Program-made: the position numbers and the translations under genes
IMG/VR virus record: IMGVR_UViG_3300030107_007962
Span: 1 to 26,463 of that record
From: a virus
Reading direction: 5' to 3' (one strand)
Length of the DNA stretch: 26,463 nucleotides
The notes under the pieces: model-generated
Databases searched by the model: none
Told to the model about the DNA's origin: nothing
Seen by the model: the letters and a program-made list of their open reading frames with translations, nothing else
Shown here: positions 46 through 21,825 of the stretch, piece after piece
How the letters are laid out: each line of letters begins with the position of its first letter
How positions within the stretch are numbered: position 1 is the first letter of the stretch

Positions 46-285
46 ATGAGCGAAACTGAAAACGCGATCTGGACACTGGTCTTATCAGTGATATTGATCG
101 CCAGTCTTGTCCAGGAAGCAGTCCTCGTGACTGTTGTCAGTTGTTTTATGCTGTCATATGTCAAATTTGACGCCTGGAGAACATTTGAAGAACGGAAGCG
201 CTGGAATAAATTTTACTTTGTATCGTATTTGACCCTTGGTGTCGCCTACATACTAATGTATGTTTATTTCGGAGCGCTAACATGA
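46..285 (+). CDS. small integral membrane protein, unknown function
   Basis: A 79-residue protein I do not recognise. It has a long hydrophobic stretch at about residues 8-39, a charged loop (about 42-54, with several Arg, Lys and Glu) and a second membrane segment at about 56-78, so at least two transmembrane helices are expected. The start is supported by AAAGGAG at 34-40, five bases before ATG. Its stop overlaps the next start as ATGA, which suggests translational coupling to the ClpP-like protease. A small two-helix phage membrane protein could be holin-like or a membrane anchor, but nothing specific shows this. Confidence 0.75.
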   Translation: MSETENAIWTLVLSVILIASLVQEAVLVTVVSCFMLSYVKFDAWRTFEERKRWNKFYFVSYLTLGVAYILMYVYFGALT

Positions 286-947
286 AAGATATATTTTGGC
301 TAGGCGGGCAAGACCCCACACAAAAAAAAGAAGAACTAGATAAAGCAGCAGAATTAGCTGGAGCCCTCTCGTGGCTCGGATTTCCCACAGCAGGGAATAA
401 AGACGATGATAATGTCGTTGAGGCCAAGAATAACGATATATATTTTTATTCTGAGGTAACTCGACCCAAAATCCTATTATTAAACAAGAATTTGCTAGAA
501 TTAGGCAAAAACCTTGTAAATCAGGCAAATTTGCTGTCTCTCTCAGAACCAGCAAAGATTCAGTTAAGAATTAACAGCTACGGAGGCAGCGTTTTCGCCG
601 GCCTAGCAGCCGTTGACTATATCAAGGAGTCCCCAGTGCCGGTTACGAGCATTATAGAGGGTTGTGCTGCCTCTGCAGCCACCATCATGAGCGTGACAGC
701 CCACCATCGGCAAATGAAGCCGAACTCCTTTATGCTTATCCACCAGCTTTCAGCTGGAATGTGGGGCAAATATGAAGAAATGAAAGATCAAATGGATAAC
801 AATGATCGCCTAATGAGGCTCATTAAAGATATCTATATTGAGCACACTAAGATACCTCGAAAGAAACTTAATGAGATTCTTAAAAAAGATCTATGGTTTG
901 ATGCCGAGACTTGCTTAGAATACGGACTCATAGACGAGATTGTGTAA
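282..947 (+). CDS. ClpP-like serine protease (peptidase family S14)
   Basis: A 221-residue ClpP-fold peptidase. The S14 signatures are clear: INSYGGSVFAG at about 97-107, the nucleophile region EGCAASAATIM with Ser131, and MLIHQ with His154. Asp203 in KKDLWFDAE sits where the third triad member of ClpP is found, just before the YGLIDEI signature. The catalytic triad therefore appears intact. The N-terminal 85 residues are more charged and less typical than in bacterial ClpP. In phages, S14 enzymes act as head-maturation proteases or as stand-alone ClpP homologues. No major capsid or portal gene is adjacent, so the role is open. It overlaps the gene before by 4 bases and the zinc-ribbon gene after by 1 base. 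Confidence 0.93.
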   Translation: MKDIFWLGGQDPTQKKEELDKAAELAGALSWLGFPTAGNKDDDNVVEAKNNDIYFYSEVTRPKILLLNKNLLELGKNLVNQANLLSLSEPAKIQLRINSYGGSVFAGLAAVDYIKESPVPVTSIIEGCAASAATIMSVTAHHRQMKPNSFMLIHQLSAGMWGKYEEMKDQMDNNDRLMRLIKDIYIEHTKIPRKKLNEILKKDLWFDAETCLEYGLIDEIV

Positions 948-1187: not shown

Positions 1188-1262
1188 ATGCTTGAAAGCC
1201 ACCCTATTCTACAGAATGTTTTAGTGTCTTTTTGTTTAGCAATTGCTTTAGTTTGTCTTTAA
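1188..1262 (+). CDS. 24-residue hydrophobic micro-protein
   Basis: A very short ORF, MLESHPILQN then an uninterrupted hydrophobic stretch to the end (residues 11-24, ending AIALVCL), so it could span or dip into a membrane. Support is mainly the strong AAAAAGGAG ribosome-binding site seven bases before ATG, in an otherwise unexplained 90-base gap. The same reading frame is open upstream from 1059, but that extension overlaps the FmdB gene and has no ribosome-binding site. The 3' end overlaps the convergent protease gene by 15 bases. No homology recognised. Confidence 0.45.
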   Translation: MLESHPILQNVLVSFCLAIALVCL

Positions 1263-2027
1263 TTTAACGTATTTTCTCGCCAAATCTCGGATCTCTCTTA
1301 GTGTTGGAGAGAATGTGAGGAATTGGAACCTGGTGTGAACAGAGTGAATCATCCCGATCACCTCACCATCGGAGTTAAATACAGGGCTTCCACTGCTTCC
1401 GCCAACAGCGGGAACAGAATAAGAGGCATAACGACTAAACTTACCATTGTAATAGCCATCTAGTGTCGGAATAACTCCGGCAGCAAAAAAACCAACAGGA
1501 GCAGCGAGGTTATAAGCTTTATCACCCGGAAGAGGGTTGGTGTCGGCAATTATCGCTGGCTTTCCCTGAAGGCCATGGACAAAAGCGGCACATAGGTCAG
1601 ACTCTTTGTCCATTTCTAAAATAACCGCCGCGTATTGAGCCCCCTTCTCATCATAAACGAAGAATTCGTCCCCTGTGTGTTTGATGTGGGGGCTTTCGAT
1701 ATATTTAACCATATCGGATACATCACACACATGAGCAGCGGTTATCATAAACGCCCCATAGGGGACGGTTCCAATTAAGAAACCAGACCCGCTCGATCTC
1801 ATTTTCCTGTTAATGCATTCATCGGGCTTTTTGAGATTGGGACAGTATTTTAATTTTACATTTCTATCAATTTTTAGAAATGATTGTCTTGGGAGGATTT
1901 TGGTGGTGGCCTCGGTCAACGTGTTGGGAACTATATTCGTTCCATCTAAATCTGAACACGAGACTGTAGCACACGAAAAAAGCCCCAAAGAAAAGAGAAT
2001 AAGTAAAGTTTGTAAGTATTTCATCAT
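1248..2027 (-). CDS. trypsin-like serine protease with lipoprotein-type N terminus
   Basis: A 259-residue chymotrypsin-fold peptidase, the only minus-strand gene. The triad is visible: His99 in ITAAHV, Asp144 in ESDLCA, and Ser212 in GGSSGSP. An N-terminal hydrophobic segment ends LGLFSC (Cys19), suggesting a lipoprotein signal peptide, although Phe at -2 departs from the consensus lipobox. Cys24 follows, and Cys62, Cys71, Cys101 and Cys146 could form disulfides, fitting an exported protein. The start ATGATG is preceded by AAGGG on the minus strand. It probably acts in the host envelope or periplasm. Its opposite orientation and independent upstream region suggest an autonomously expressed accessory gene (a moron). 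Confidence 0.85.
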   Translation of the reverse strand: MMKYLQTLLILFSLGLFSCATVSCSDLDGTNIVPNTLTEATTKILPRQSFLKIDRNVKLKYCPNLKKPDECINRKMRSSGSGFLIGTVPYGAFMITAAHVCDVSDMVKYIESPHIKHTGDEFFVYDEKGAQYAAVILEMDKESDLCAAFVHGLQGKPAIIADTNPLPGDKAYNLAAPVGFFAAGVIPTLDGYYNGKFSRYASYSVPAVGGSSGSPVFNSDGEVIGMIHSVHTRFQFLTFSPTLREIRDLARKYVKLKTN

Positions 2028-2098
2028 AGCACCCTTAAAATAACTAGGCGTTATTCCACGAAAAAACTAATTACTATTAATTAAACGGTGATAAACCC
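2028..2098. promoter_or_regulatory. AT-rich divergent intergenic region
   Basis: This 71-base gap separates the minus-strand protease from the plus-strand lipoprotein gene, so it must carry a promoter for the protease and perhaps one for the genes to the right. It is AT-rich (for example ACTAATTACTATTAATTAAA), but I cannot pick convincing -35/-10 pairs on either strand. Confidence 0.4.
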
Positions 2099-2410
2099 AT
2101 GAAAATACACACTATCTTCCTCCTCTTGTTAGCTTTGGCAGCGCTTTTAACAGCCTCTTGCGGAGTCCTATCTTTTTCAACAACCCACGTCTCTTACAAA
2201 CCATTTCCGGCACCAGACCAGGAAAGCAGAGTAAAGTATCCTTGTGTGGTTGATCTAGAAGAATCGGAAGCAGGCGCGGATATTATGATATGCCCTCAGT
2301 CCGAAGGCGAATTTGATCGACTTTATGCTATTGACTCTTATATTACAAATGATGTCAGCACTAAAGACGGACATGTTCTCTCTCGAATGCCCGAATACGA
2401 TATTGAATAA
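2099..2410 (+). CDS. small putative lipoprotein, unknown function
   Basis: A 103-residue protein with a typical export signal: Lys2, a leucine/alanine-rich core (residues 6-18) and a lipobox-like TASC with Cys21, though Thr at -3 is not ideal. The mature part is acidic, with two further cysteines (in KYPCVVD and MICPQ) and no recognised domain. It could be an outer-membrane-anchored phage lipoprotein such as an o-spanin. It lacks the proline-rich stretch of classical Rz1 and no i-spanin partner is seen, so I leave the function open. It is divergent from the secreted-type protease, so two envelope-directed genes face each other. Confidence 0.65.
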   Translation: MKIHTIFLLLLALAALLTASCGVLSFSTTHVSYKPFPAPDQESRVKYPCVVDLEESEAGADIMICPQSEGEFDRLYAIDSYITNDVSTKDGHVLSRMPEYDIE

Positions 2411-2422
2411 AATAGGTTGGTA

Positions 2423-3739
2423 ATGACTACAAAAAAGTATGTTCTCGATACATGTGTTTGTCTCACAGACGCTAATTCTTTATTTTCTTATGAAGATAAC
2501 GATATTATAATACCTTTTAAGGTTTTAGAAGAAATTGACAAGCACAAGAAAAGACAGGATAGTGTGGGAGTAAATGCCCGAGAGACTATTCGGACCCTTG
2601 ATGAGTTAAGGCTCGCCGGAACTTTAAAAAATGGAGTTAGTTTAGGAGAAGGAAAAGGTATCTTGACAGTTAATACAGGATCCTTGGATAAACTAAACTC
2701 CAGCTTCGAAAAAACCGATCCTGATAATGAGATTATTAGTGTGGCTTTGGCCGCTCAAGAAGAATATGAAGATTCCGAGGTGATTTTGGTTTCTCGTGAC
2801 ATTAACATGAGGATTAAGTGTGATTCAATTGGGATGGAGACTCAAGATTATGTGGAAGGGGAGACAATTAAACGAAGTGAGGGTCTTTATACTGGGTTTA
2901 CCACCTATCTTGTTGACGATGAGATCGTAGACCGCTTTTATGAAGGGAATGATATCTACGCAGTAGAAGAAGAAGTAGAACTTTTTTCAAATGAGTTGGT
3001 GATGTTGGTATCTAATGCTAACGAAAAGAAAACGGCTTTAAGTCGATTTTATGATTACAACACTCCTTTGAAGAATTTAGTTAAATATGATGAGATATGG
3101 GGAATCCGCCCCCGAAATAAGGAACAGACTTTTGCTCTGGAACTCTTGATGGACCGAAATGTGCCGGTAGTTACTCTGATTGGCCGAGCAGGAAGTGGAA
3201 AAACACTTTGTGCCATTGCCGCGGCCCTCCAACAGACATTAGAATATGGCCCGGACGAATCTCCATACAAACGAGTGATCGTCTCTCGACCGGTAGAACC
3301 AATGGGGAAGGATATCGGCTATCTTCCTGGAACTCTTGAAGAAAAAATGCTTCCTTGGCTCTCTCCGATAAAAGATAACTTGGAATATTTAATGGGAGAC
3401 CGAAAGAACATGGATCTATATATGGATGAGGGAATGATCGAAATCGAAGCCCTCACTTATATCCGAGGTCGATCCATCTCTAATGCCTTTATTATCATTG
3501 ACGAAGCTCAACAGTTAACAAAACATGAAATAAAGACTATACTTACAAGAGTCGGAGAAGGAACAAAGATTGTGTTTACTGGAGATATTGAGCAAATTGA
3601 CAATGTATATGTTAACGAGACAACTAACGGACTCACATATGTCGTGGAGAGATTCAAAAACCACGATATTTCCGGCCACATAACGTTGAAAAAAGGCGAA
3701 CGTTCCAAAGTCGCCACCATATCAGCAGATATATTATAA
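2423..3739 (+). CDS. PIN-PhoH fusion ATPase (PhoH-like protein)
   Basis: A 438-residue two-domain protein. The N-terminal PIN-type RNase domain (about 5-150) shows YVLDTC with Asp9, Glu36/Glu37, Asp99/Asp101 and LVSRDINMR with Asp126, the expected acidic cluster. The C-terminal PhoH P-loop domain (about 225-435) has Walker A GRAGSGKT (254-261), Walker B IIIDEAQQ (Asp360, Glu361) and IVFTGDIEQID as sensor region. This PhoH2/YlaK-like architecture is known from bacteria, where PIN-PhoH proteins act on RNA as helicase/RNase. Single-domain PhoH is more common in marine phages. The start is ATG at 2423, six bases after AGG; an upstream in-frame TTG at 2417 is less likely. Confidence 0.95.
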   Translation: MTTKKYVLDTCVCLTDANSLFSYEDNDIIIPFKVLEEIDKHKKRQDSVGVNARETIRTLDELRLAGTLKNGVSLGEGKGILTVNTGSLDKLNSSFEKTDPDNEIISVALAAQEEYEDSEVILVSRDINMRIKCDSIGMETQDYVEGETIKRSEGLYTGFTTYLVDDEIVDRFYEGNDIYAVEEEVELFSNELVMLVSNANEKKTALSRFYDYNTPLKNLVKYDEIWGIRPRNKEQTFALELLMDRNVPVVTLIGRAGSGKTLCAIAAALQQTLEYGPDESPYKRVIVSRPVEPMGKDIGYLPGTLEEKMLPWLSPIKDNLEYLMGDRKNMDLYMDEGMIEIEALTYIRGRSISNAFIIIDEAQQLTKHEIKTILTRVGEGTKIVFTGDIEQIDNVYVNETTNGLTYVVERFKNHDISGHITLKKGERSKVATISADIL

Positions 3740-3749
3740 GGAGTAAAAC

Positions 3750-4046
3750 ATGGCTGAAATAGAATTTAATAATAAAGAAGAAGTAGTTAACACCGATCTT
3801 GAAAAGGTAGTAGTTGAAGATTCACCAGTTAAGGAGTGGCTCGTTAATTACGTGGGAGAGAAGATTAATCCCGAGGATGGGAACGTAACCGTTGGAATGG
3901 TCGTCGAGACATTAGCGGAGGAGTTTCCTGAATTCCTGCTGGTCTTAGCAGAAGAAAACTTCATTCGTGGTTATGAGCAGGCATTGACGGATGTTGAGGT
4001 TGGTCAATCAATGGCAGAAACCGAAGCCATGATTAATAATGACTAA
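3750..4046 (+). CDS. acidic hypothetical protein
   Basis: A 98-residue, strongly acidic protein starting MAEIEFNNKEEV after a good AAGGAG ribosome-binding site. The central region (about residues 29-80: VNYVGEKINPEDGNVTVGM, then an acidic amphipathic helix and FIRGYEQAL) is reminiscent from memory of a conserved small protein of T4-like marine phages. I cannot name a function. There is no signal peptide, membrane segment or cysteine. It overlaps the metalloprotein gene by 8 bases and lies 10 bases after phoH, so the three are probably co-transcribed. Confidence 0.75.
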   Translation: MAEIEFNNKEEVVNTDLEKVVVEDSPVKEWLVNYVGEKINPEDGNVTVGMVVETLAEEFPEFLLVLAEENFIRGYEQALTDVEVGQSMAETEAMINND

Positions 4047-4719
4047 ATTTAGAGAATATATTATCGAAAAAGAAAAGAACACTCGTAAAAATTATATCTA
4101 TTTTTATGGGAATATTCCCGTTTATATCAAAGACTCTTTACCAAAGGGAATTAACATCGAAAGAGTGCTCTCGAAAGTCGAAAAGGCCGTACCCAGACCT
4201 CTTATTTGGGATTTGGACATGGTAGTGGTGGGACACATCCCAGAATTTGAAGAGCGCCAGATTAACGCCTTATATAAAGACAGCGCTATCTATGTGACCA
4301 ACGCCCAGTCCTCAAATGAGGATATGGTGGATGATATTGTCCATGAAATGGCTCACTGTTTCGAGGAGCGCCACGCCCACGACATCTATGGAGATATGGC
4401 GGTTGAAAACGAATTTATAGAAAAGAGAAAAAGAGTTTTTGATCTGTTAAGTGACGGGGGCTATGATGTTCCGGCAAAGTATTTTCTAGATCCTGAATAT
4501 GATGAAGACTTCGATATGTTTTTGTACACTGTAGTTGGATATCCGACTCTCTTAACAATGACATATGATTTGTTCACAAGCCCTTATGCCATCACCTCCT
4601 TAAGGGAGTATTTTGCTAAAGGCTTCGAAGAATATTTCATTGGAAATGAAAAAAATCTTAAAGAAATAAGTCCAGTGTTATATAATAGACTCATAAAGGT
4701 GACAGCAGATGAAAATTAA
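4039..4719 (+). CDS. putative zinc metallopeptidase (HExxH)
   Basis: A 226-residue protein with a clear zincin motif IVHEMAHCFEE (His102, Glu103, His106). A plausible third ligand is Glu197 or Glu198 in FAKGFEEYFIG, matching the (F)xExF helix seen in gluzincin-like peptidases of the lethal-factor-like type. It has no signal peptide, so it should act in the host cytoplasm or be packaged. The N-terminal 90 residues resemble no family I know. Many phage HExxH proteins of this size are structural or host-directed proteases; no substrate can be deduced. It overlaps its neighbours by 8 and 11 bases, placing it in one translationally linked group with PhoH and the nuclease. Confidence 0.75.
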   Translation: MTKFREYIIEKEKNTRKNYIYFYGNIPVYIKDSLPKGINIERVLSKVEKAVPRPLIWDLDMVVVGHIPEFEERQINALYKDSAIYVTNAQSSNEDMVDDIVHEMAHCFEERHAHDIYGDMAVENEFIEKRKRVFDLLSDGGYDVPAKYFLDPEYDEDFDMFLYTVVGYPTLLTMTYDLFTSPYAITSLREYFAKGFEEYFIGNEKNLKEISPVLYNRLIKVTADEN

Positions 4720-5844: not shown

Positions 5845-7116
5845 GTGACAAAGAAAATTAAAGTTCTCACTCTCAGTGATCACCCGATGTCGCCATCAGG
5901 AGTTGGAACTCAAACTAAGTATATGATCGAGGCCCTATTGGCAACAGGGGAATTTCAGGTTTATTCCTTCGGAGGAGCCATACAGCACAACAACTATGAT
6001 GCTTCAGCAGTTGACGGTTATGGAAACGACTGGATTATCCAGCCCGTTGACGGCTACGGGAATAAAAATCAAATTAGGGAATTCCTTCATCGCTGGAAGC
6101 CGGATATTTTATGGTTCATGACCGATCCCCGCTTTTACCCCTGGCTGTGGGATATGGAAAATGAAGTTCGAAGTCACACACCGATGGTCTATTATCATGT
6201 GTGGGACAATTATCCCGCGCCACAATTTAATCGAAATTTTTACCTTTCTAATGATTTTATCGCCACCATTTCGAAGGTGACAGATGACATCGTAAAGACA
6301 GTAGCTCCAGAGGTTGAGAGTATGTATCTTCCTCACGCTGTATCCGATGGTGTGTTTAGAAAGCTCGATGATAAAGAAATTGAGGAATATAAAGCAAACA
6401 CATTGCCACCCAACGCCAAAGACAAGTTTGTCTTTTTCTGGAATAATAGAAATGCCAAACGAAAGATGTCGGGATCGATTCTTCATTGGTTCAACGACTT
6501 TCTACATGAAGTAGGTCATGATAAGGCAATGTTGATTATGCACACGGACCCAAAAGATCCCCACGGACAAGACCTACAGGCAATCATTGGCCACCTGGGC
6601 CTAGCGGATCCATCTCATAGTAATGTTTTATTATCAGTAGAAAAGTATCCTCCCGAAGTTCTTGCCCAAATTTATAATTTAGCTGACTGTACAATAAATA
6701 TTTCAGATGCTGAAGGGTTTGGCTTGGCTACTTTAGAGTCTCTTTCTTGTGAAACCCCGATTATCGTCAACATGACAGGAGGTCTTCAGGAACAGGTTAC
6801 TGATGGCGATAACTGGTTCGGTATTGGAATTGAGCCGGCCTCTAAGGCAATCATTGGGTCCCAGGATGTACCCTGGATCTATGAAGACAGGGTGGCTAAA
6901 GAGGATTTTATTAATGCCCTGAAAACAATGTTTGAAATGGACCCGGAAGAGAGAAAGAAGATGGGTCAACTCGGTCGTGCTCATGTGGAGAAGAACTATA
7001 GTTTTAAACAATTTTGTGACCGCTGGAAGGTTGTTATGAGAGATATTCATGAAAGATTTGGATCGTGGGATACTCGAAAAGGCTATGACACTTGGCACAT
7101 GAAGGAGATGGAATGA
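5845..7116 (+). CDS. GT4-family glycosyltransferase
   Basis: A 423-residue GT-B fold glycosyltransferase. The N-terminal half has the GT4-type glycine loop LSDHPMSPSGVGTQTKYM. The C-terminal half has the nucleotide-sugar motif EGFGLATLE (Glu290 and Glu298, the E-x7-E pair) followed by TGGLQEQV. It is a retaining enzyme by family; donor and acceptor are unknown. The start is GTG with GAGG at 5835-5838. There is no membrane segment. A short tandem motif, VDGYGN, appears twice 12 residues apart (DNA 6010-6027 and 6046-6063). It starts the sugar island, 15 bases after the nuclease, and overlaps the next GT4 gene by 4 bases. Confidence 0.92.
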   Translation: MTKKIKVLTLSDHPMSPSGVGTQTKYMIEALLATGEFQVYSFGGAIQHNNYDASAVDGYGNDWIIQPVDGYGNKNQIREFLHRWKPDILWFMTDPRFYPWLWDMENEVRSHTPMVYYHVWDNYPAPQFNRNFYLSNDFIATISKVTDDIVKTVAPEVESMYLPHAVSDGVFRKLDDKEIEEYKANTLPPNAKDKFVFFWNNRNAKRKMSGSILHWFNDFLHEVGHDKAMLIMHTDPKDPHGQDLQAIIGHLGLADPSHSNVLLSVEKYPPEVLAQIYNLADCTINISDAEGFGLATLESLSCETPIIVNMTGGLQEQVTDGDNWFGIGIEPASKAIIGSQDVPWIYEDRVAKEDFINALKTMFEMDPEERKKMGQLGRAHVEKNYSFKQFCDRWKVVMRDIHERFGSWDTRKGYDTWHMKEME

Positions 7117-8363
7117 GAAAAAAAGTATTAATCAAAGGCCCGCTTTTAAGCATGTCGGGATATGGAGTTCAGGCTAGGTTTGCTTTAAACTGTCTGAAGA
7201 GCCGAGAAGACGTGTTTGACATTTATGCTATTAATATCCCCTGGGGTGATACAGGTTTTATTACCGAGGACACCTCAGAGAAAAGAAATATTGATTTCTT
7301 GTTGGGAAAAACGATTGCCCATGTTCAACAGGGTGGAACATTTGATATATCTCTTCAGGTTACCATTCCTGCCGAATTCGAACGAATCGCCCCTTATAAC
7401 GTTGGGTATACCGCTGGAGCAGAAACCAGTTTAGTTTCTGGACCGTGGCTTCAGAAAATCAATACGATGGATCGGATTATAACCACGTCCGAGCACACAA
7501 AAAATAGTATCATCAGCACTGTTTATGATGTGAGCGACACCGCCACAGGCGCCCCCAAGGGCGAATTATCTGCTCGACCTCCAGTGGAGGCTGTGAATTA
7601 TGCCGTAAGAGATGTGGAATCTCAAGAATTGGATATCGATTTTTCCACACCATTTAACTTTCTCGTGGTGGCCCAATGGTGTACAAGAAAGAATCTGGAA
7701 AATACGATTGCCTGGTTTGTGGAAGAGTTCAAGTTAAATGGAGATGTCGGACTTGTGGTGAAAACCAACACTGTTAAAAACTCTCTTATGGATCGAGAAT
7801 ATACCACAGCCCGACTGCAGAGTTTGTTGGATTCTCTAGGGCCTCGGGATTGTAAGGTCTATCTGTTACATGGGGATCTGAAGGAAGGGCAATTAACAAC
7901 TCTTTATAATCATAAGAAAATTAAAGCCCTTGTGAGTCTAGCTCATGGTGAGGGGTTTGGGTTGCCACTATTTGAGGCTGCTTATAATGGCCTCCCAATT
8001 GTGGCCCCCGCTTGGAGCGGCCATGTTGACTTTTTGAATGCCCCTGAGAAGGGCAAACTTAAGCCTCATTACAGCATTGTAAGTCATCAGTTGGATAAGA
8101 TTCAGCCCGAGGCAGTATGGCCAGGGGTGCTGGAGGCAGACTCCCAATGGTGTTATCCTCAGAAAAATTCTTATCGAAACGTTCTTCGTTCCCTTATAAC
8201 GGATTATGGTGCTGTTAAAAAGAAGGCTAAAAAGCTCCAAAAGCATGTCTTGAAAAACTGGGCGCCGGAAATCATTCATAAGCAATTTGTTGATGCCATG
8301 GGAGTGGACCTAGCCGTCACAGAAGAGGGCTCTTCCAGTGAGGACGTTGTAGTTTTTGACTGA
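7113..8363 (+). CDS. GT4-family glycosyltransferase
   Basis: A 416-residue GT-B enzyme of the GT4 type. It has an N-terminal GPLLSMSGYGVQARFAL loop and the C-terminal motif HGEGFGLPLFEAA (E-x7-E: Glu280, Glu288), then APAWSGHVDFL. The start is ATG at 7113 with AAGGAG at 7102-7107; an upstream TTG at 7092 only adds a non-homologous seven residues. It joins the preceding gene as ATGA and the following one as TGATG. The last 20 residues are Ser/Glu/Asp-rich. It belongs to the same family as the preceding enzyme but the two are clearly divergent, so they likely add different sugars or use different acceptors. Confidence 0.92.
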   Translation: MRKKVLIKGPLLSMSGYGVQARFALNCLKSREDVFDIYAINIPWGDTGFITEDTSEKRNIDFLLGKTIAHVQQGGTFDISLQVTIPAEFERIAPYNVGYTAGAETSLVSGPWLQKINTMDRIITTSEHTKNSIISTVYDVSDTATGAPKGELSARPPVEAVNYAVRDVESQELDIDFSTPFNFLVVAQWCTRKNLENTIAWFVEEFKLNGDVGLVVKTNTVKNSLMDREYTTARLQSLLDSLGPRDCKVYLLHGDLKEGQLTTLYNHKKIKALVSLAHGEGFGLPLFEAAYNGLPIVAPAWSGHVDFLNAPEKGKLKPHYSIVSHQLDKIQPEAVWPGVLEADSQWCYPQKNSYRNVLRSLITDYGAVKKKAKKLQKHVLKNWAPEIIHKQFVDAMGVDLAVTEEGSSSEDVVVFD

Positions 8364-9967
8364 TGAGGGAGATAGTTTGGATAGCCGACTTCTCAGTTCA
8401 TGAGATCAGGGGCGGAGGCGAGATTGTTGATGCCCACCTCATGGACCTTCTGAGTCAAAATGGGTATAGCGTTTTATTTGCTAAAGCATCCACTATTCAG
8501 GCCGCCCAAATCAAAGCCAATTTAGACAAGCTTTACATTGTTTCCAATTTTGTCTCTTTGAGACAAGAGGTTAAAAAGATTTTGGAGCTGGCAGATTATT
8601 ATATTGTCGAGCACGATCATAAGTATTTGAGAACGAGAGATCCCTCTCCCTTCCCCAACTTAAAGGCACCCCCCAATCAGATAATCAATAAATCATTTTA
8701 CAAGAAAGCCAAAAGAGTATTTTGCCAGAGCACCAAGCACGGAGAGGTGGTGAGAGAAAATCTTGGCTTAACAAATATCACCTCTTTTGGTTGCACGTTT
8801 TGGAGTAATGAAGAGAAGAAGATTCTTAAAGACAAGATTATTAAAGATAAAACAGGTAAAGTGGGAGTGCTGGAGAGTCAAAATTCCGTTAAAGGTCAAT
8901 TACAAGCAGAGATTTATTGCCGAAACAACGACCTAGAGTACGAGTTGTTCTCAGACCCTGATTATAATAAATTTATCGATAAATTAGCTGGCTATCAAAA
9001 GCTTGTATTTTTTCCTCAAGTTTTTGAAACATTCAGTAGATTAGCAGTGGAAGCTCGAATTCTCAATTGTGAGTTGGTCGGAAATAAGAACATAAGCGCC
9101 GCTCACGAGCCGTGGTTCAAATTAAAGGGCCTAGACCTTCTAGAAGCCGTTAACGAGCATCAGACGAGCGCTGAGGCCCTTTTTATCGACACAATTGGAG
9201 AACTTGCCGAAGATAATCGCCAAGTAGCGGATATTACAGTGATTTTAAACATGTATAGACGCCCCAACAACATGCCACTGCAGGTAAAGGCGGTGAAAGG
9301 TCAGAGCGTTAAACCCAAACAGGTTTGGACGTGGGTAAATGCTCATGAAGATAATGAAAATTACGATAAAGAGAGTCTGGATGTAGACAGGCTGTTTGAT
9401 AACGATCATAACTGGAAGTTTTATGGCCGTTTTGCTGCCGCCCTTTTGGCCGACACGGAGTATGTGGCTATCTTTGATGACGACACAATTCCTGGCGAAA
9501 GGTGGTTTGAAAATTGCTTAGAGACGATGAAAAAGAACGAAGGAATTTTAGGGTCTGCCGGTGTCATTCTTAATCAAAAACATTATGTGGATCACTTACG
9601 TTGTGGTTGGCCAATTTCTAACCCTGAAACGACCGAGGTGGATCTTGTTGGTCATGCCTGGTTTTTCAAGCGAGAATGGTTACAGTATTTGTGGAAAGAA
9701 AAGCCCCCAACGTGGGATAATGGTGAAGATATACAGTTCTCTTTTCTAGCACAGAAATATGGAAATATAAAAACCTATTGCCCTCCTCACCCTCCGGAGG
9801 ATCGTTCGTTACACGGCTCAATATTGGGTAACGAACTGGGTATCGATAGTAAGGCTACGTCAAACAACAACGAAACCTCTCATCAACAATTTTTTTCGGA
9901 GAGAGATGGTGTTGTTCACAACGCTTTAGAAAACGGATGGAAAACAGTTAAGGAAGTGAAATTATGA
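8363..9967 (+). CDS. bifunctional-type glycosyltransferase: GT-B-like N domain + GT2 C domain
   Basis: A 534-residue protein that appears to be a fusion. Residues 1 to about 275 look like a GT4/GT-B domain (IADFSVHEIRGGGEIVDAHL with the glycine-rich loop; later VFETFSRLAVEARIL resembles the donor-site helix, but the first Glu of E-x7-E is shifted). Residues about 290-534 are a GT2 (GT-A) domain: DITVILNMYRRPNNM at the start, the metal-binding DDD at 372-374 (FDDDTIPG), and NGEDIQFSFL with Glu455/Asp456 as probable catalytic region. Two transferases in one chain would allow consecutive sugar additions. The N domain may instead serve only for acceptor binding. Confidence 0.85.
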   Translation: MREIVWIADFSVHEIRGGGEIVDAHLMDLLSQNGYSVLFAKASTIQAAQIKANLDKLYIVSNFVSLRQEVKKILELADYYIVEHDHKYLRTRDPSPFPNLKAPPNQIINKSFYKKAKRVFCQSTKHGEVVRENLGLTNITSFGCTFWSNEEKKILKDKIIKDKTGKVGVLESQNSVKGQLQAEIYCRNNDLEYELFSDPDYNKFIDKLAGYQKLVFFPQVFETFSRLAVEARILNCELVGNKNISAAHEPWFKLKGLDLLEAVNEHQTSAEALFIDTIGELAEDNRQVADITVILNMYRRPNNMPLQVKAVKGQSVKPKQVWTWVNAHEDNENYDKESLDVDRLFDNDHNWKFYGRFAAALLADTEYVAIFDDDTIPGERWFENCLETMKKNEGILGSAGVILNQKHYVDHLRCGWPISNPETTEVDLVGHAWFFKREWLQYLWKEKPPTWDNGEDIQFSFLAQKYGNIKTYCPPHPPEDRSLHGSILGNELGIDSKATSNNNETSHQQFFSERDGVVHNALENGWKTVKEVKL

Positions 9968-10992
9968 TTTTATTATGTTATGGAACAAGGCCGGAGTACA
10001 TTAAAATTCTCCCCCTGATGGATGAATTTGAAGATAACGGCATTCAATACAAGGTGTTGTTTACAGGACAACACATGGACCTGTTACCGCTTGAGGCAAC
10101 TCGGAGGCTGGACCACACTCTTGATATCAAAGACGGGGATAATCGGCTAGACAGTATTGTCGAGTCAGTTATGAACGCCACCCGTGTGTGGGAGGAAGAA
10201 TATGAGTTCTTGTTAGTCCAGGGAGATACAACCACGGCGTTTGCCTGTGCCTTGGCAGCCTTTCACCGAAACATCCCAGTGATACACCTGGAAGCCGGCC
10301 TAAGAACTTATGACAACCAGAATCCTTATCCAGAGGAATTCAACCGTCAAGCTATTTCACGATTAGCTGCTGTTCACTTGTGTCCCACCAATCAAGACGC
10401 CCAAAATCTCAGAACCGAGAGAGTTCAGGGAAACATTTATGTGGTGGGCAATACCGTGTTAGATAATTTAAGAAAGAAAAACTTAGGGATAGGTTATTCT
10501 AATAAAGTTTTGATAACCATGCATCGTCGAGAGAACCATGAGATAATCCCCGAATGGTTCGAGCAGTTTGACAGAGTTGCCAAGGCATTTGACGAACTGG
10601 AGTTTGTATATTACGCTCACCCCAACCCCAATGTTCAGAAACACCTGGATAAACTCCAACATGTAACGGTGTTGCCCGCTCTTGCCTATGACAGCTTTAT
10701 CGAAGAGGTGGCCACATGCCAGTTTATTATCACAGATTCTGGTGGCCTACAGGAAGAATCTTCATTTTTGAGGAAAAAGAGCATTGTATGTCGAAAAAAG
10801 ACAGAAAGAGTAGCGGGTCTGGGAGAATATTCAGCTTTATGCTTATATCCGGAGCAATTATATGCTATAGTTAATGAAGTTTCAAAAAACCATCGAGTTT
10901 CTGAAGAATCTATTTGTCCGTATGGTAATGGATACTCAGCGAGAAACATCTTAACTATATTGGAGAATTTCGAAAATGAGCAAGGGGTTTAA
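9964..10992 (+). CDS. wecB: UDP-N-acetylglucosamine 2-epimerase (WecB/NeuC family)
   Basis: A 342-residue enzyme with every family hallmark: GTRPE (7-11), VQGDTT (85-90), HLEAGLR (108-114, Glu110), PEEFNRQ (123-129), MHRREN (186-191, His187), and TDSGGLQEES (257-266) for UDP binding. It interconverts UDP-GlcNAc and UDP-ManNAc (WecB) or releases ManNAc (NeuC); WecB is more likely as no NeuA/NeuB lies nearby. It is somewhat short (about 370 in WecB), the loss being spread over loops. The start joins the fusion glycosyltransferase by ATGA, and it overlaps the next gene by 17 bases. Confidence 0.93.
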   Translation: MILLCYGTRPEYIKILPLMDEFEDNGIQYKVLFTGQHMDLLPLEATRRLDHTLDIKDGDNRLDSIVESVMNATRVWEEEYEFLLVQGDTTTAFACALAAFHRNIPVIHLEAGLRTYDNQNPYPEEFNRQAISRLAAVHLCPTNQDAQNLRTERVQGNIYVVGNTVLDNLRKKNLGIGYSNKVLITMHRRENHEIIPEWFEQFDRVAKAFDELEFVYYAHPNPNVQKHLDKLQHVTVLPALAYDSFIEEVATCQFIITDSGGLQEESSFLRKKSIVCRKKTERVAGLGEYSALCLYPEQLYAIVNEVSKNHRVSEESICPYGNGYSARNILTILENFENEQGV

Positions 10993-11758
10993 AGAGGATT
11001 TCTTTCATCTTTTAAAGATGCTTAAAGATGGAGAACATTTTGCTTTCACAAGGTTTTCCGATGGGGAAACTTGTATTATGAGAAACGAGAAGCTCGTTCT
11101 TGGAAGTGAACAAGTCCAAGTGGGCGAGACCATTCATGATTTTGGATATTCAGAAGACGATCATAAAGAATTTATTCCCGAAGAGCACTCTTTTGTGAGA
11201 GAGGCTTTAATTGACTCATTCAAATTTAAAAAAAAGAACTATTTTGTTGGAGCGGGCTGTGGAAACTGTACTTGCTTGATCCGAGAAGATATCCCGATGC
11301 TCAAGGAAATGCGTCCCGACGACGAAGAACACTGGACGAGCCCCAACCTTTTGGTGAACTCGAATTATCCTTTATTCCTCAATCACTTTTTACCTCAATT
11401 TAAGAAGAGTAAAGTCGTTATGATCTGTAGTAAGGATGCTAGTTTTGATAAGCTTCCTTTTGAAGTTATCAAAGACTTTCGAGTGGGGAGAAATTGTATT
11501 GTTAATGATCATGAGCTAGAGGGGGAAATAAAGGCATGGATGACAGAAAACAAAATCAAAGATCACGTCTTTTTATTTTCTGCCAGCAGCTTGAGTGAGA
11601 TTTTAATTCATAAATTATTTGAGCACGACGAGCAGAATACATACATTGACATTGGGACAACTCTTCACTGGCACCTGAACCTCGGCATCGAGAGAGATTA
11701 TCTTCGAGGATATTGGAATAATATTCCTTTTCCTGATTTGTACAAGGACTGTAATTAA
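10976..11758 (+). CDS. probable GT-D fold glycosyltransferase (DUF1792-like)
   Basis: A 260-residue protein. FAFTRFSDGETCIM near the N terminus (Arg26, Asp29, Glu31) matches the R-F/Y-G-D-G-E signature of DUF1792 enzymes, whose DxE motif binds the metal in the GT-D fold. Near the C terminus, VFLFSASSLSEILIHKL followed by TYIDIGTTLHW resembles their conserved Asp-Ile-Gly end. The middle carries three nearby cysteines (GAGCGNCTCL), not expected in the family and possibly metal-binding. The start is supported by GGAG at 10962-10965 and it ends in a TAATG junction with the GNAT gene. The assignment rests on motif recognition only. Confidence 0.65.
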   Translation: MSKGFKEDFFHLLKMLKDGEHFAFTRFSDGETCIMRNEKLVLGSEQVQVGETIHDFGYSEDDHKEFIPEEHSFVREALIDSFKFKKKNYFVGAGCGNCTCLIREDIPMLKEMRPDDEEHWTSPNLLVNSNYPLFLNHFLPQFKKSKVVMICSKDASFDKLPFEVIKDFRVGRNCIVNDHELEGEIKAWMTENKIKDHVFLFSASSLSEILIHKLFEHDEQNTYIDIGTTLHWHLNLGIERDYLRGYWNNIPFPDLYKDCN

Positions 11759-12153
11759 TGAAACTCGTCAGAAATAGTTTTAAATATTGGGAGTTTATTA
11801 GGAATTTGAGAAATAATGAAGAAGTCAAAGAAGGTTTTGTACAACAATCTCACATCACTAAGTTTCAACATTTAAAGTTTATGTTCAAACATGGAAAAGA
11901 TTATTATATTTGTTTGAATAAAAGAAATACAAAGCCCCTCGGTTTTGTGGGGCAGATCAACGGAGATATTCGAGTGGCCGTAGCCCCAGAACATCAAGGA
12001 AAGGGGATTGGCAAGTTTATGATAAATGAGTTAATGAAGAAGCACCCACAAAGCTTTGCCAAGGTTAAGATAGAGAACTCATCAAGTTTATGGTTATTTA
12101 AAAAATGTGGGTTTAAAGAGAAGTATTATATTTTGGAGAGAGATGCTTCATAA
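11758..12153 (+). CDS. GNAT-family N-acetyltransferase
   Basis: A 131-residue GNAT. Motif A is VAVAPEHQGKGIGKFMI (73-89), with the Q-x-x-G-x-G acetyl-CoA pyrophosphate loop at 80-85. Motif B follows as NSSSLWLFKKCGFKE (107-121). Placed directly upstream of, and overlapping by 11 bases, a DegT-type sugar aminotransferase, it most likely N-acetylates the amino sugar made by that enzyme, as PseH and similar GNATs do in other glycan pathways. That pairing is inference from context. Protein N-terminal acetylation is the alternative. Confidence 0.85.
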   Translation: MKLVRNSFKYWEFIRNLRNNEEVKEGFVQQSHITKFQHLKFMFKHGKDYYICLNKRNTKPLGFVGQINGDIRVAVAPEHQGKGIGKFMINELMKKHPQSFAKVKIENSSSLWLFKKCGFKEKYYILERDAS

Positions 12154-12766
12154 TCCATATAAAATAGTTAAAATGTTTGAAGAAGAAGTGGCATACTATA
12201 CCGGAGCCCCTTATGCCGTCTCCACCAATAGTTGTACAAATGCTATCTTTTTAGCTTGTAAATTCGAAGAGGTGAACGGAAAAGAGGTTATTATTCCTAA
12301 AAGAACGTATTTGTCTCCACCCCAGTCTATTTTACAAGCTGGTGGAAATCTAGTGTTTGAGGAAGTTGAGTGGCAAGGAATATATCAACTCAAACCATTC
12401 CCCATATATGATGCCGCTAAGCGTTTAACTTCGGGAATGTACATTCCTGGCACCCATATGTGCCTCTCTTTTCACATTAAGAAACATTTGAAGATCGGAA
12501 AGGGCGGCATGATCTTGACAGATAATCTACAAGCCGTTGAATACTTCCGAAAAGCACGATATGAAGGCAGGGGAGAGGTTAAATATCACGAAGATATAAT
12601 AGACGAAGAGGGGTGGAATATGTATATGACACCAGAACAGGCAGCACGGGGATTGATGCTAATGCAGAATTACCCCGAACATATGCCAGACATCCCAGAG
12701 GACCCTCCCTATAAAGACCTGACTGAATTTGAAATATTTAAGGAGATAAAAATCAAATGCCCATAA
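12143..12766 (+). CDS. short DegT/DnrJ/EryC1/StrS-type sugar aminotransferase
   Basis: A 207-residue PLP enzyme of the DegT family, where about 370 is usual. Visible blocks: YYTGAPYAVSTNSCTNAIFL (cofactor-phosphate region), VIIPKRTYLSPPQSI, YDAAKRL with Asp90 (family D-A-A-Q/H), SFHIKKHLKIGKGGM with Lys114 as the likely PLP lysine, and MTPEQAARGL matching the MTELQAALG block. The protein ends about 35 residues after that, so the C-terminal small domain is missing. No leftover C-terminal ORF is found downstream; FkbM begins within its 3' end. It may be a natural mini form or a decayed enzyme. The start is ATG at 12143 with GGAG at 12135-12138. Confidence 0.8.
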   Translation: MLHNPYKIVKMFEEEVAYYTGAPYAVSTNSCTNAIFLACKFEEVNGKEVIIPKRTYLSPPQSILQAGGNLVFEEVEWQGIYQLKPFPIYDAAKRLTSGMYIPGTHMCLSFHIKKHLKIGKGGMILTDNLQAVEYFRKARYEGRGEVKYHEDIIDEEGWNMYMTPEQAARGLMLMQNYPEHMPDIPEDPPYKDLTEFEIFKEIKIKCP

Positions 12767-13515
12767 ATCTAGATCACATAGATCTCGCCACAATAGACAA
12801 AAGAATAGACAAAAGCAACATCAAAATCGATGTTGGCTTAGCCATTGATGCTCCACATTCTGCCCATTGGTTGTTAACAGAGCCCACCTCTTTGGTTATT
12901 GGAGTCGAGCCACATCCAGGAAATGTAGAAACACTCAGAAGAGGCCGAACCACCCCCGAACTGGATTTCCCATATTTAATAATGGACGAAAACGCCATTT
13001 GTAAGCAGGGGCTAAAAATAGGAACTTATGATCCTTCACGATTTGTGCTTATTGAGGGCGCTGTGGATAACGTAGGGAACACACCCACCACGATGGATTT
13101 TTATTGTACTGCTGCCACTAACTCTGGGTGTTCCAGTCTCCTTAAACCCACACCACTGCTTCGTCACAAAATCGAAAGCAAGATTAAAGTGGATGTTTAT
13201 TCATTAGAATATATTCTTGATCAATTGGGCTTTCAGGATGTAGAGGGCATCCGATTTGTAAAAACAGACACCCAGGGAAAGGATTTTGATGTTGTGAAGA
13301 GTCTGGGAAAATATCTTCCCCGAGTTTTGGCCCTAAAGTGTGAACACAACATAGCGGATCAGTATGAAGGTGCCAACTCCTTTGAGGAATTTCAGGAATA
13401 TATGACTCAAAATAGATTTCAACTAGTTTATAATAATGGGTGGGACGCCCACTTCTTTAATCTTAGATATAGAATTACGGGAGGAAGCCCGTTTAACTTG
13501 CCAAGCGGGATATAA
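12757..13515 (+). CDS. FkbM-like SAM-dependent methyltransferase
   Basis: A 252-residue class I methyltransferase of the FkbM type. Motif I is IKIDVGLAIDAPHSAHW (22-38), the acidic SAM-ribose position lies in VIGVEPHP (Glu51), and the FkbM signature appears as VKTDTQGKDFDVVKSLG (168-184; usual form K-I-D-V-E-G-x-E). Family members O-methylate sugar hydroxyls in lipids and polysaccharides. The Glu of V-E-G is replaced by Gln (TQG), a small departure. AGGAG at 12741-12745 supports the start. It is one of three FkbM-like genes in the island, so methylation is probably a major tailoring step. Confidence 0.82.
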   Translation: MPINLDHIDLATIDKRIDKSNIKIDVGLAIDAPHSAHWLLTEPTSLVIGVEPHPGNVETLRRGRTTPELDFPYLIMDENAICKQGLKIGTYDPSRFVLIEGAVDNVGNTPTTMDFYCTAATNSGCSSLLKPTPLLRHKIESKIKVDVYSLEYILDQLGFQDVEGIRFVKTDTQGKDFDVVKSLGKYLPRVLALKCEHNIADQYEGANSFEEFQEYMTQNRFQLVYNNGWDAHFFNLRYRITGGSPFNLPSGI

Positions 13516-13517
13516 AA

Positions 13518-14114
13518 ATGGGTTTGTACAAGATTGATCAGACAACTAGAAGAACTTTAGTAGAAAGTTTAAATTTAGAACAATTTAAAGCTGCTGTCGA
13601 GGTTGGCGTTCGAACTGGATGGTTCAGTAAATATATACTAGACAACACTCAGATGAAGGTTTATGCCATTGATCCGTGGGAAGACAACAGCGAACTTACG
13701 GAGTCCGAGGATGTGTTTGCCGAATGTCAGGAACGACTGGCCCCATATGGAGAGCGAGCGGAAATGATCAAGGGGTATAGTCCTGCCGCGGCAGACTTAT
13801 TTAGTGACGAAAGTGTGGACTTTGTGTACATTGATGCCCTCCACGATTATGAATCGGTTAAAAAAGATATAGAGGCATGGTGGCCTAAAGTTAAAAGAGG
13901 AGGGGTTATCTCAGGTCATGATTATAATCGACTAAAGTGGCCAGGAGTGGTGAAGGCTGTCAAAGAATTTTGTAAAGAAAAGGGTGTGACATTCTCCTTA
14001 ACAGGCGTCTTGGATAATGGGAGAACATCCAGGCGCGGCGACTTTGAAGAATTCGACGGCGACGAAGCAAGTTGGTTCGCTATAAAGGACATAGCTCCGG
14101 GAGCGGAACAATAG
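13518..14114 (+). CDS. class I SAM methyltransferase (Methyltransf_24 type)
   Basis: A 198-residue methyltransferase. It shows AVEVGVRTGWFSKYIL (motif I, 26-41), VYAIDPWED (acidic ribose-binding Asp52) and DFVYIDALHDYESVKKDIE (101-119) followed by RGGVISGHDYN. The Y-I-D-x-x-H-x-Y block is typical of cephalosporin-hydroxylase-like and macrocin-O-methyltransferase-like sugar methyltransferases, where the Asp/His cluster can bind a metal. It therefore probably methylates a sugar hydroxyl. It lies 2 bases after the FkbM-like gene and 1 base before the fucosyltransferase-like gene, suggesting that methyl and fucosyl additions act on one glycan. Confidence 0.85.
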   Translation: MGLYKIDQTTRRTLVESLNLEQFKAAVEVGVRTGWFSKYILDNTQMKVYAIDPWEDNSELTESEDVFAECQERLAPYGERAEMIKGYSPAAADLFSDESVDFVYIDALHDYESVKKDIEAWWPKVKRGGVISGHDYNRLKWPGVVKAVKEFCKEKGVTFSLTGVLDNGRTSRRGDFEEFDGDEASWFAIKDIAPGAEQ

Positions 14115-14115
14115 G

Positions 14116-15003
14116 ATGATTACTTTTTATCAACTTGGCCAGCTTGGGCGATTGGGGAATCAACTTTTTCAGTATGCTGCCCTGAGAGGTCTCAGTTTAG
14201 AAAGAGGATATGTTGCCAAAATTCCACATCCCGACACGAGAGTGTGGCACGGCCAATCGTGTTTGCTTGGAAATTTTAATATTGAGGCGGAGTATTATGA
14301 AGAAGTTGAACTACTTGAGGTCAAGCAAGCATATAACGAACCGGATTATATGAAATATGACACTCGATTTTATCAAATTCCAGACAACACCAATTTGACT
14401 GGTTTTTTTCAAAGCACACTTTATTTCAAAGGCCACGAGGAACAAATCAAGAAAGAACTCACCCCACGGCAAACGCTAATGAACACCGCGGAAGAAACAA
14501 TGAATGAAATCAAAAGAAAACACCCTGGCTATAAAATTGTTTCTCTTCACTTAAGACGAGGAGACAACACAGATAATACTGATTCGGGACAAGTGGAACT
14601 TAATAATTCATATGGGGGAGAAGCCCTGACCAAAGATAGTTTTTATTATCAATATTATAAAAGAGCCACTGATATTTTCAAAAAAGAAAAGGTGAAATAC
14701 CTAATCTTTTCAGGGGGAAAAAGAGACTCAGATGATAATAGTGATGACATGGAGTGGTGTAAAAGAAATTTTATGGGAGATGAATTTTTATTTTCGGAAG
14801 GAAGAAACACAATAGAAGATTTTTGCTTAATAATGTCGTGTGATTATAATATAATAAGTCATGTCAGTAGTTTTGGGTGGTGGGCAGCATATTTGAATCC
14901 AAGTGAAAACAAAAAAGTGGTCGCCCCTTTACAATACCACCCTGATAGATTAGATATAAATTACCGAGAAGGATTTTACCCAGAGGAGTGGACGTTAGTA
15001 TGA
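14116..15003 (+). CDS. GT11 alpha-1,2-fucosyltransferase-like glycosyltransferase
   Basis: A 295-residue enzyme with the GT11 motifs: GRLGNQLFQYAALRG at the N terminus (11-25), the GDP-fucose-binding HLRRGD (145-150), and SSFGWWAAYLN (251-261). Its length is normal for bacterial GT11 enzymes. It should transfer L-fucose from GDP-fucose, inverting, to a galactose-like acceptor. Two GDP-fucose-synthase-like genes a few kb downstream (16629-18518) would supply the donor, although the GDP-mannose 4,6-dehydratase needed before them is not in the window. It is linked to the next gene by an ATGA overlap. Confidence 0.92.
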   Translation: MITFYQLGQLGRLGNQLFQYAALRGLSLERGYVAKIPHPDTRVWHGQSCLLGNFNIEAEYYEEVELLEVKQAYNEPDYMKYDTRFYQIPDNTNLTGFFQSTLYFKGHEEQIKKELTPRQTLMNTAEETMNEIKRKHPGYKIVSLHLRRGDNTDNTDSGQVELNNSYGGEALTKDSFYYQYYKRATDIFKKEKVKYLIFSGGKRDSDDNSDDMEWCKRNFMGDEFLFSEGRNTIEDFCLIMSCDYNIISHVSSFGWWAAYLNPSENKKVVAPLQYHPDRLDINYREGFYPEEWTLV

Positions 15004-15695
15004 ATTTAGTTTTTGATATAGGATTTAATAGAGGTGAGTTTACTCACGAATGTTTGAGAAAATATCCTGATTGTAGAATTGTTGGAATCGAAGCCAACCC
15101 TATTTTGTGTGAAGATGCTCCTCGCCACCCTAATCTTACGATAGTTCATGCCGTTGCCTCTGACCGGGCTGACGAAAAAGTAGAATTTTTTATTGAGCCT
15201 GCTCAAGACGGGATATCAACAGCTTCTAAGACATTTATGGAGAACTCACGGTTTACGAAAGGAAGCCCGAAGATCCAGCCCAATTCGGCTCGTTGGCTTC
15301 CTCCCATTGAGATTGATTCTACGACTATCGACAGTGTTATAGAGCAGTTCGGTATGCCGGCGCTCATCAAAATAGATGTAGAAGGATATGAATATAACGT
15401 GGTGAAAGGGCTTAATCAAAAGAGTGGCCAAATTTGTTTTGAGTGGCACGAGGAGGAATATGATAATTTGTTAAAAATCGTCGAGCATCTCCAAACCATA
15501 GGCTACAAAGAATTTGGAATGATTGGGTATTTGGAAGAGGGGGACATCTTCGAAAAAATAACCTATTCGTTTAAGGGCGATCCGTATTTGGAGGAACCAA
15601 AAGAATATTTTTCTTGGGAAGAGCTTAAAGAAGAGATAGATAAATTCTGTAAACCAGAAAGACGAGTGGATTACGGAATGATGTGGTGTAAATAA
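15000..15695 (+). CDS. FkbM-family methyltransferase
   Basis: A 231-residue FkbM methyltransferase: FDIGFNRGEFTHEC (motif I, 5-18), VGIEANP (Glu31), and the signature LIKIDVEGYEYNVVKGL (122-138 with Lys124, Asp126, Glu128). The start is taken as ATG at 15000, which overlaps the fucosyltransferase stop as ATGA; an in-frame GTG at 14988 is possible because GAGGAG lies at 14983-14988. Lying directly behind a GT11 gene, it may O-methylate the fucose or its neighbour. That substrate is inferred. The C-terminal 45 residues are extra, acidic, and not part of the domain. Confidence 0.92.
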   Translation: MNLVFDIGFNRGEFTHECLRKYPDCRIVGIEANPILCEDAPRHPNLTIVHAVASDRADEKVEFFIEPAQDGISTASKTFMENSRFTKGSPKIQPNSARWLPPIEIDSTTIDSVIEQFGMPALIKIDVEGYEYNVVKGLNQKSGQICFEWHEEEYDNLLKIVEHLQTIGYKEFGMIGYLEEGDIFEKITYSFKGDPYLEEPKEYFSWEELKEEIDKFCKPERRVDYGMMWCK

Positions 15696-21548: not shown

Positions 21549-21825
21549 AGAATATTATGAGTACTATCTTACACTCCACCAGAATAAGTGGAATAGGAGA
21601 CTTCATGCTTTAGGGCAAGTTTGTACGATTGTGTTCGTCATGTGGTGTTTGAACAATTCATTGTTATTTCTTCTTTTAGCTCCGTTTGTTGTTTATCCTT
21701 TTGCTTGGACAGGACACATTGTTTTTGAAAAAAATAAACCAGCAGCATGGAGCAAGCCCTTGTTTGCTAAACTGTGTGATTGGATTATGTTAAAAGACAT
21801 GATAATAGGAAGACTTGAGAGATGA
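21532..21825 (+). CDS. Mpo1/DUF962-like small membrane protein
   Basis: A 97-residue protein with the DUF962 layout: YYEYYLTLHQNKWNRRLHALG at the N terminus, a hydrophobic hairpin (about 29-60), then WTGHIVFEKNKPAAW. His16, His25 and His62 are the conserved histidines; in yeast Mpo1, a relative, they hold iron for alpha-oxidation of 2-hydroxy fatty acids. Bacterial members are uncharacterised. The start is TTG at 21532. It overlaps the kinase by 17 bases and the SDR by 4. It is the only clear integral membrane protein in the sugar island, so it could tie the pathway to a lipid, but that is inference. Confidence 0.83.
   Translation: MLKELKEYYEYYLTLHQNKWNRRLHALGQVCTIVFVMWCLNNSLLFLLLAPFVVYPFAWTGHIVFEKNKPAAWSKPLFAKLCDWIMLKDMIIGRLER

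Follow-up and report, generated by a model that had tools for sequence, protein, structure and literature searches.

Comparison of a single opposite-strand gene with its relatives in viral contigs identifies it as a long-kept gene that belongs to the core of a lineage of uncultured T4-like phages, and its predicted product is a trypsin-fold protease that is probably exported and lipid-anchored. The window, by which we mean the whole stretch of DNA analysed, is a virus record of 26,463 bases. Consistent with the original prediction of a gene standing alone on the minus strand, the ORF (Table 1), intact from ATG to stop, was the sole minus-strand member among the 30 greedy non-overlapping ORFs of at least 100 aa in the window. 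Because its homologues share the reading frame and dN lies far below dS, the ORF is far beyond chance. Pfam Trypsin_2 (PF13365) was the protein's own best Pfam match and was covered over its whole length (model positions 1-144 of 144; E = 2.6e-14, 54.6 bits against a cut-off of 27.6), and PHROG 9683, annotated as 'protease', also matched (E 2.6e-7). The three catalytic residues, His99, Asp144 and Ser212, were unchanged in 38/38 rows of an alignment (A4) whose rows are 29-82% identical to the window protease. A second alignment of 40 rows retained Asp and Ser in all rows and His in 38, the two rows without His being contig-cut fragments, and the H.C, D.C and GSSGS patterns were present in 59 of 61 further contigs. 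The trypsin-like protease with a full His/Asp/Ser triad that had been proposed was therefore borne out.

Table 1. Positions of the protease gene, its parts, its neighbours and the second protease family (window coordinates unless a locus is named).
Feature	Position	Strand	Basis
Trypsin-fold (S1, Trypsin_2/HtrA-like) predicted lipoprotein protease, 259 aa	1248..2027	-	ORF, PF13365, AlphaFold, DegP/HtrA1-like fold
Catalytic His99	1731..1733	-	Invariant in A4; codon read
Catalytic Asp144	1596..1598	-	Invariant in A4
Catalytic Ser212 in GGSSGSP	1392..1394	-	Invariant in A4; codon read
Predicted signal peptide, residues 1-18 (MMKYLQTLLILFSLGLFS)	1974..2027	-	Home-made lipobox rule
Probable lipid-attachment Cys19 (Cys24 second candidate)	1971..1973	-	Lipobox LFSC, then AT; Cys column filled in 38/38 rows
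Divergent 103-aa lipoprotein-like ORF	2099..2410	+	phmmer matches only L002, weakly L007; no Pfam match
PIN-PhoH gene, constant divergent neighbour	2417..3739	+	PF02562, E 1.3e-51; synteny
ClpP-like gene, convergent side	282..947	+	PF00574, E 1.7e-29
CTAGTTAT element, promoter or operator candidate	2040..2047	-	20 nt ahead of start codon; CTAGTTA conserved in family
CTAATTA, related element	2067..2073	+	Faces 2099-2410, 32 nt before start
Second protease family loci	L093:4503-6262, L094:4784-6654, L096:4748-6500		Contigs G013, G024, G025

An AlphaFold2 model of the monomer built on A4 reached a mean pLDDT of 90.1 and a pTM of 0.79, residues 28-40 falling below 50. The best solved structures were the protease domains of DegP, DegQ, HtrA1 and DegS at Z 23-24 (DegP 3otp_C, Z 23.9, rmsd 2.5 over 185 residues at 20% identity; HtrA1, Z 23.8). 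HtrA1 was also the top Foldseek match (E 9.8e-13), a profile search of PDB sequences agreed with the HtrA-type structure matches, and among predicted viral structures the best match was A0A516MAS3 (27% identity, E 4.8e-15). The S1 fold and the triad are thus common to the window protease and the HtrA/Do proteases (DegP, DegQ, DegS and human HtrA1); the bacterial members work in the periplasm, where the window protease would also be placed, and DegS is likewise membrane-anchored. By contrast, the window protease has a predicted lipid anchor where HtrA proteins are soluble or transmembrane, it has invariant cysteines, and no PDZ domain was detected in it: none appeared among the Pfam matches to E 0.1, and past the last strand the model holds a single helix (residues 243-254) before the chain ends at residue 259. 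Identity to the DegP, DegQ, DegS and HtrA1 structures was only 15-22%, and NCBIfam TIGR02037 (degP_htrA_DO) scored 20.5 bits against a cut-off of 416.2. On the model and these scores, the protein has an HtrA-shaped protease domain, yet it should not be classed as a member of the HtrA family. With DegP, DegQ, DegS and HtrA1 as its nearest folds, it could be envisaged as an HtrA-like protease of the phage that stands in for host DegP/DegS during host transcription shut-off, clearing misfolded envelope proteins and so keeping the cell alive until lysis. Such a quality-control role is rather improbable, however, as the usual HtrA substrate recognition and regulation would be missing along with the PDZ domain and the element upstream of the gene resembles one found before late genes.

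The protease begins with MMKYLQTLLILFSLGLFSC followed by AT, which constitutes a signal peptide and lipobox under a home-made rule; this rule, not SignalP, underlies the signal and lipobox calls given here. A signal peptide and a lipobox were found in 39 of 41 family members, the other two being contig-cut fragments that lack the N-terminus, so that the lipoprotein-like signal noted originally was recovered in 39/39 members with an N-terminus. When a stricter lipobox rule was applied to 61 further loci, 56 passed, and the remaining five have Thr preceding the Cys. As a measure of specificity, a similar rule was positive for 2 of 154 ORFs in a 159-kb relative (G002), whose own protease it missed since the start lies beyond the searched range, and for 2 of 36 ORFs in the window, namely the protease and its divergent neighbour 2099-2410. 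Where several cysteines had been remarked upon, six were found (residues 19, 24, 62, 71, 101 and 146), and the four outside the signal region never vary across the 38 rows of A4. The invariance of Cys62, Cys71, Cys101 and Cys146, taken without coordinate distances, suggests two disulfides, 62-71 and 101-146, and fits an oxidising compartment. At the end of the signal peptide, MAFFT aligned Cys24 of the window, not Cys19, with the single Cys column of A4; the lipidated residue would be one of these two, probably Cys19. According to the E. coli +2 rule, the lack of an Asp after the lipidated Cys favours the outer membrane, and since Ala-Thr follow Cys19, with no Asp, the outer membrane would be favoured here. 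The particle might instead carry the protease, for instance on its tail, and such a virion-associated enzyme would be in keeping with an upstream element that resembles one ahead of tail genes (described below). However, all members whose N-terminus is present have a signal peptide and a lipobox, which would direct export from the cytoplasm, the site of tailed-phage assembly; the lipoprotein signal speaks against a virion part, though not absolutely, and we consider this alternative very unlikely.

The gene had been regarded as uncommon phage cargo. Among named phages, a trypsin-like serine protease is reported for the T4-supercluster phages Rhizobium P10VF and Sinorhizobium phiM9 in PMC10783043. 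These phages, PHROG 9683 and Rhizobium phage AF3, whose protein was matched in the fold search, resemble the window in having a trypsin-like protease in a phage; the P10VF, phiM9 and AF3 genes differ in that the window protein gave no tblastn match at E<=0.01 in 50,697 records of named phages. Further tblastn searches of named phages gave only three matches (E 0.5-1) with the protease of locus L045 and none with those of L096 and L111, the annotation of phage Cr30 listed no trypsin-like gene in the first 50 kb of its 156 kb, no title or abstract opening describing the protease family was found among the open-licence PMC papers listed, and the passages considered from PMC3037559 contain nothing about the protease gene. 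By contrast with the supposed rarity, a pattern scan with A4 revealed relatives encoded in 342 viral contigs; the top 80 of these were taken further. Among the 79 best loci, the stretch retrieved included phoH in 73, and in 73/73 of these the protease gene is divergent from phoH across no more than 600 bp; within the stretches retrieved, all 79 loci showed a single protease copy. Related phages are thus characterised by a widespread gene in the same orientation, which, leaving aside the question of a virion component, is the distribution that had been named as evidence against cargo. In IMG/VR, a close relative (82%) occupied the identical place and orientation in a 123-kb contig.

Related phages were also gathered via the neighbouring clpP, the best 80 of 141 contigs being kept; a phmmer search of their ORFs recovered the protease from many, and iterating the profile led to a stable set of 43 ORFs. 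This clpP-selected set contained one exception to the arrangement, L034, with the protease on the strand of phoH, while in L018 and L019 the protease shares the strand of clpP and is still divergent from phoH. Tandem double copies lie ahead of phoH in six loci (L027, L028, L029, L030, L033 and L036), and there we observed that the clpP-proximal copy has a C-terminal extension with several cysteines. A Trypsin_2 gene was present in 40 of the 80 clpP-selected contigs (23/31 + 16/48 + 1/1), many of which are fragments; left out of this count were L007, picked via the protease itself, and L005, a negative picked otherwise, which is a more distant relative with clpP and phoH but no protease. Among contigs of at least 140 kb, Trypsin_2 occurred in 10 of 14 and was absent from L069, L071, L076 and L085, whose clpP is 47-53% identical; three of the ten positive contigs (G013, G024 and G025) carry a different protease family. 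As far as these contigs go, the gene is core in only part of the clpP-selected group.

The second family, on related T4-like contigs, likewise has a Trypsin_2 domain, is lipoprotein-like by eye and retains His/Asp/Ser in 3/3 members, but it is distant from the window family (E 3e-10, 7e-9 and 4e-4 with the profile of the first family). Whereas the window family is divergent from phoH, the second family is co-directional with a gene for a VWA-like domain. In the three large contigs, which have no phoH-linked protease, the second protease directly precedes this lipoprotein-like gene, for which the Pfam VWA model was below cut-off in two and absent in one. The link to a VWA-like lipoprotein was confined to the second family: A5 matched 7 of 44 contigs, three strongly and four weakly.

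To describe how the protease has evolved, we compared its pairwise divergence with that of phoH at 32 loci (one of 33 was dropped, its phoH being too short, and one copy per tandem pair was used). The two were closely correlated (Mantel r 0.873, a value reached by 0 of 999 permutations). Protease divergence also followed that of a metallopeptidase-like neighbour (0.756), to a degree similar to that between phoH and this neighbour (0.78). Three usable pairs gave Nei-Gojobori dN/dS values of 0.0034/0.122, 0.138/1.34 and 0.116/1.88 (ratios ~0.03-0.10); for the window and L002, dS was saturated (4.5) where dN was 0.112, and dS was unusable in two further pairs. On these sequence comparisons the protease is under purifying selection. 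With regard to a bacterial donor, a first scan of genome contigs gave no confirmed relative among the contigs covered, whereas a second scan returned at least 48 loci with generic trypsin-like homologues; among the matches listed, only L111 and L112 scored as family-like (E 1.7e-33; next, 3.9e-14). A tree, for which the top 24 bacterial-scan matches of at least 120 residues were considered and 22 kept, separated the 33 phage rows from all others by a modestly supported branch (94/43; present in 92% of 200 bootstrap trees); outside it stood 20 bacterial rows and, nearest to the phage rows, two viral-looking contigs of a Halobacteriovorax MAG. The phylogeny that had been proposed as a way of finding bacterial donors thus showed none, either in the tree or among the scan matches listed.

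These results bear on the earlier description of the gene as a moron. A recently acquired bacterial gene that gives the infected host a surface change might well lie on the opposite strand with its own upstream element, generic trypsin-like homologues do exist in bacteria, and the gene is missing from part of the clpP-selected contigs. Against this, the gene is widespread, syntenic with phoH in 73/73 loci and co-divergent with it, and the 33 phage rows group on one side of a tree branch, albeit one of modest support. On synteny and co-divergence we rejected the moron reading, and a recent acquisition appears extremely unlikely.

The lineage is T4-like by its gene content, because T4-type Gp23 was present in 10 of 12 related contigs and a gp21-type S77 protease in 11 of 11 searched; the terminase model PF17289 found nothing in the 12 contigs. 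With a separate gp21-type S77 gene in these 11 contigs, and given its Trypsin_2 domain and signal peptide, the window protease is not a prohead protease of the gp21/S77 or ClpP type. As a separate observation, the ClpP-like neighbour scored best with PHROG head-maturation proteases, although a gp21-type S77 gene is present in 11/11 contigs. The gp23 sequences are 43-50% identical over 59-64% of their length to those of Flavobacterium, Microcystis and Rhodothermus phages, a match that fixes no host, while the surface-sugar genes of the window suggest a Gram-negative host. These lie at 5845-25648, where a run of glycosyltransferase-like genes (by eye) is accompanied by sugar epimerases/dehydratases, an FkbM-type methyltransferase, a PfkB-type kinase and a cytidylyltransferase; the kinase and the cytidylyltransferase recall the ADP-heptose pathway. 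The distant protease relatives L111 and L112 (PBIO01000025 and PBIO01000016) are contigs of the 'Halobacteriovorax' MAG, and their neighbours look viral by eye; elsewhere in the MAG or on one of these two, contig C13 encodes a T4-type Gp23. In view of the viral-looking neighbours and the Gp23 gene, L111 and L112 name no donor; they could be mis-binned phage, or they weakly hint at Bdellovibrionota hosts.

Behind phoH, the window encodes a 226-aa metallopeptidase-like protein (4039-4719) with an HEMAH motif and a sub-threshold match to PF07737 (26.0 against 27.4 bits), and this gene is syntenic behind phoH throughout the group. Its N-terminus, MTKFREYIIEKE, has what we take to be a resemblance to the capsid targeting sequences of T4. 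N-termini of the form W-K-x-F-I/L-x-E occurred at 8 of 255 ORF starts in six stretches, compared with 9 of 2070 internal windows, and at 0 of 19 in L111; such ORFs were seen in L093, L094 and L096 and at 144329-147004 and 155125-155904 of G002. By analogy with T4 capsid targeting, it is possible that they mark head-packaged, injected proteins.

We then analysed the region ahead of the protease, for which a promoter region of its own and a convergent end had been predicted. In line with this, a promoter-like element lies upstream, the gene converges at its 3′ end with zinc-ribbon/clpP genes, and at its 5′ end it is divergently arranged. In 25 of the 33 family members, CTAGTTA lies 11-46 nt upstream of the start codon, whereas the commonest 7-mer in 50 mononucleotide shuffles, which preserve single-base content only, reached 9 of 33. 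For an independent check, 18 of the 79 loci were excluded beforehand, their contigs being already in the discovery set, and 61 remained; the five without a strict lipobox are not in the 56 that were scored. Of these 56 genes, 24 had CTAGTTA ahead of them, where the background rate is 0.0016 per upstream window; the counts are not independent events, some of the 61 loci being near-identical (e.g. L189/L191). The motif occurs once in the entire window, ahead of the protease, and ten times in the 159 kb of G002. The broader pattern CTA[TGA]TTA has just two sites in the window, both in the 71-bp gap between the protease and 2099-2410 and one per gene, which suggests that this gap holds a divergent pair of phage promoters.

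Analysis of G002 pointed to a possible class for these promoters. No 8-mer other than ACTATTTA occurred in 8 or more of its 129 upstream regions; ACTATTTA was present in 10 and enriched 10.3-fold, and 10 of its 12 same-strand occurrences lie 11-48 nt upstream of an ORF start. Ten genes behind CTATTTA, mostly as ACTATTTA, were compared with PHROGs; six had no match, and the four that matched were tail tube (behind TCTATTTA), tail sheath, head-tail adaptor and an endolysin-like gene, the best PHROG of which is of unknown function, with an endolysin PHROG second. CTATTTA/ACTATTTA is therefore a late-promoter candidate for these phages, unlike the TATAAATA of T4, which was present in just 5 of 33 upstream regions and was rejected as the promoter of the protease. 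A single core position separates CTAGTTAT from ACTATTTA, and by this motif resemblance, which is not proof, the two promoters in the gap perhaps belong to the late-gene class. Since six of the ten CTATTTA genes were unmatched and the 'endolysin' gene fits a PHROG of unknown function better, the hint of late expression of the protease is weak. A lipobox together with a promoter-like element resembling one before tail and endolysin-like genes could also point to a proteolytic lysis helper, that is, a late outer-membrane lipoprotein protease which cuts the ties between outer membrane and wall and replaces or aids the spanins. By contrast, no recognised lysis genes adjoin the protease in the loci read and its constant neighbour is phoH; we hold this alternative to be unlikely.

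Of the roles originally suggested, alteration of the host envelope is still the most plausible, and the explanation we prefer, at somewhat better than even odds, is that an exported lipoprotein protease inactivates receptors or other envelope proteins late in infection. Its starting points can be read from the DNA, namely the protease domain, the triad, the signal and lipobox given by rule, the conservation and the upstream element; lipidation, membrane side, timing, substrate and benefit are conditional, and periplasmic biology is assumed for whatever host is infected. The infected cell would transcribe the protease from the phage's own promoter, possibly late, Sec would export it, and the signal would be cleaved and the lipobox Cys lipidated. 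The lipid would then tether the enzyme to the periplasmic face of the outer (or inner) membrane, where the two predicted disulfides could form, and the anchored protease would cut host envelope proteins. The most likely purpose would be the late inactivation mentioned above, from which the phage may gain both less re-adsorption of its own kind to infected cells and debris and an envelope weakened for release. A more specific version, in which a PDZ-less, lipid-anchored HtrA-like protease, perhaps under a late phage promoter, destroys surface receptors or wall-tethering proteins, is put forward only tentatively.

Phage-made lipoproteins at the envelope have precedents. T5 Llp is described in PMC9586334 as a superinfection-exclusion lipoprotein that acts on FhuA from the periplasmic side, and the Llp/Cor lipoproteins are there called small and said to bind or jam the receptor. 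The predicted site of the window protease is like that of T5 Llp and Cor, but at 259 aa and with a whole protease domain it is neither small nor enzyme-free. Rz1-type o-spanins are also small. An o-spanin of the Rz1 type is an outer-membrane lipoprotein, according to the abstract of PMC6139136. The window protein, as a 259-aa protease, differs from such small lipoproteins. To our knowledge, the envelope-acting phage lipoproteins described so far, of the Llp type or spanins, work by binding or membrane disruption and not by proteolysis, and we know of no earlier enzymatic superinfection-exclusion lipoprotein; proteolysis would thus differ in principle from what these proteins do. If the proposed role is true, the protease would be the first superinfection-exclusion lipoprotein known to us to act as an enzyme, or else a counterpart of the spanins that works by proteolysis, kept across a large uncultured T4-like group. 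If its inferred place and action hold, an envelope protease of the phage's own would be a standing part of the infection programme in this group.
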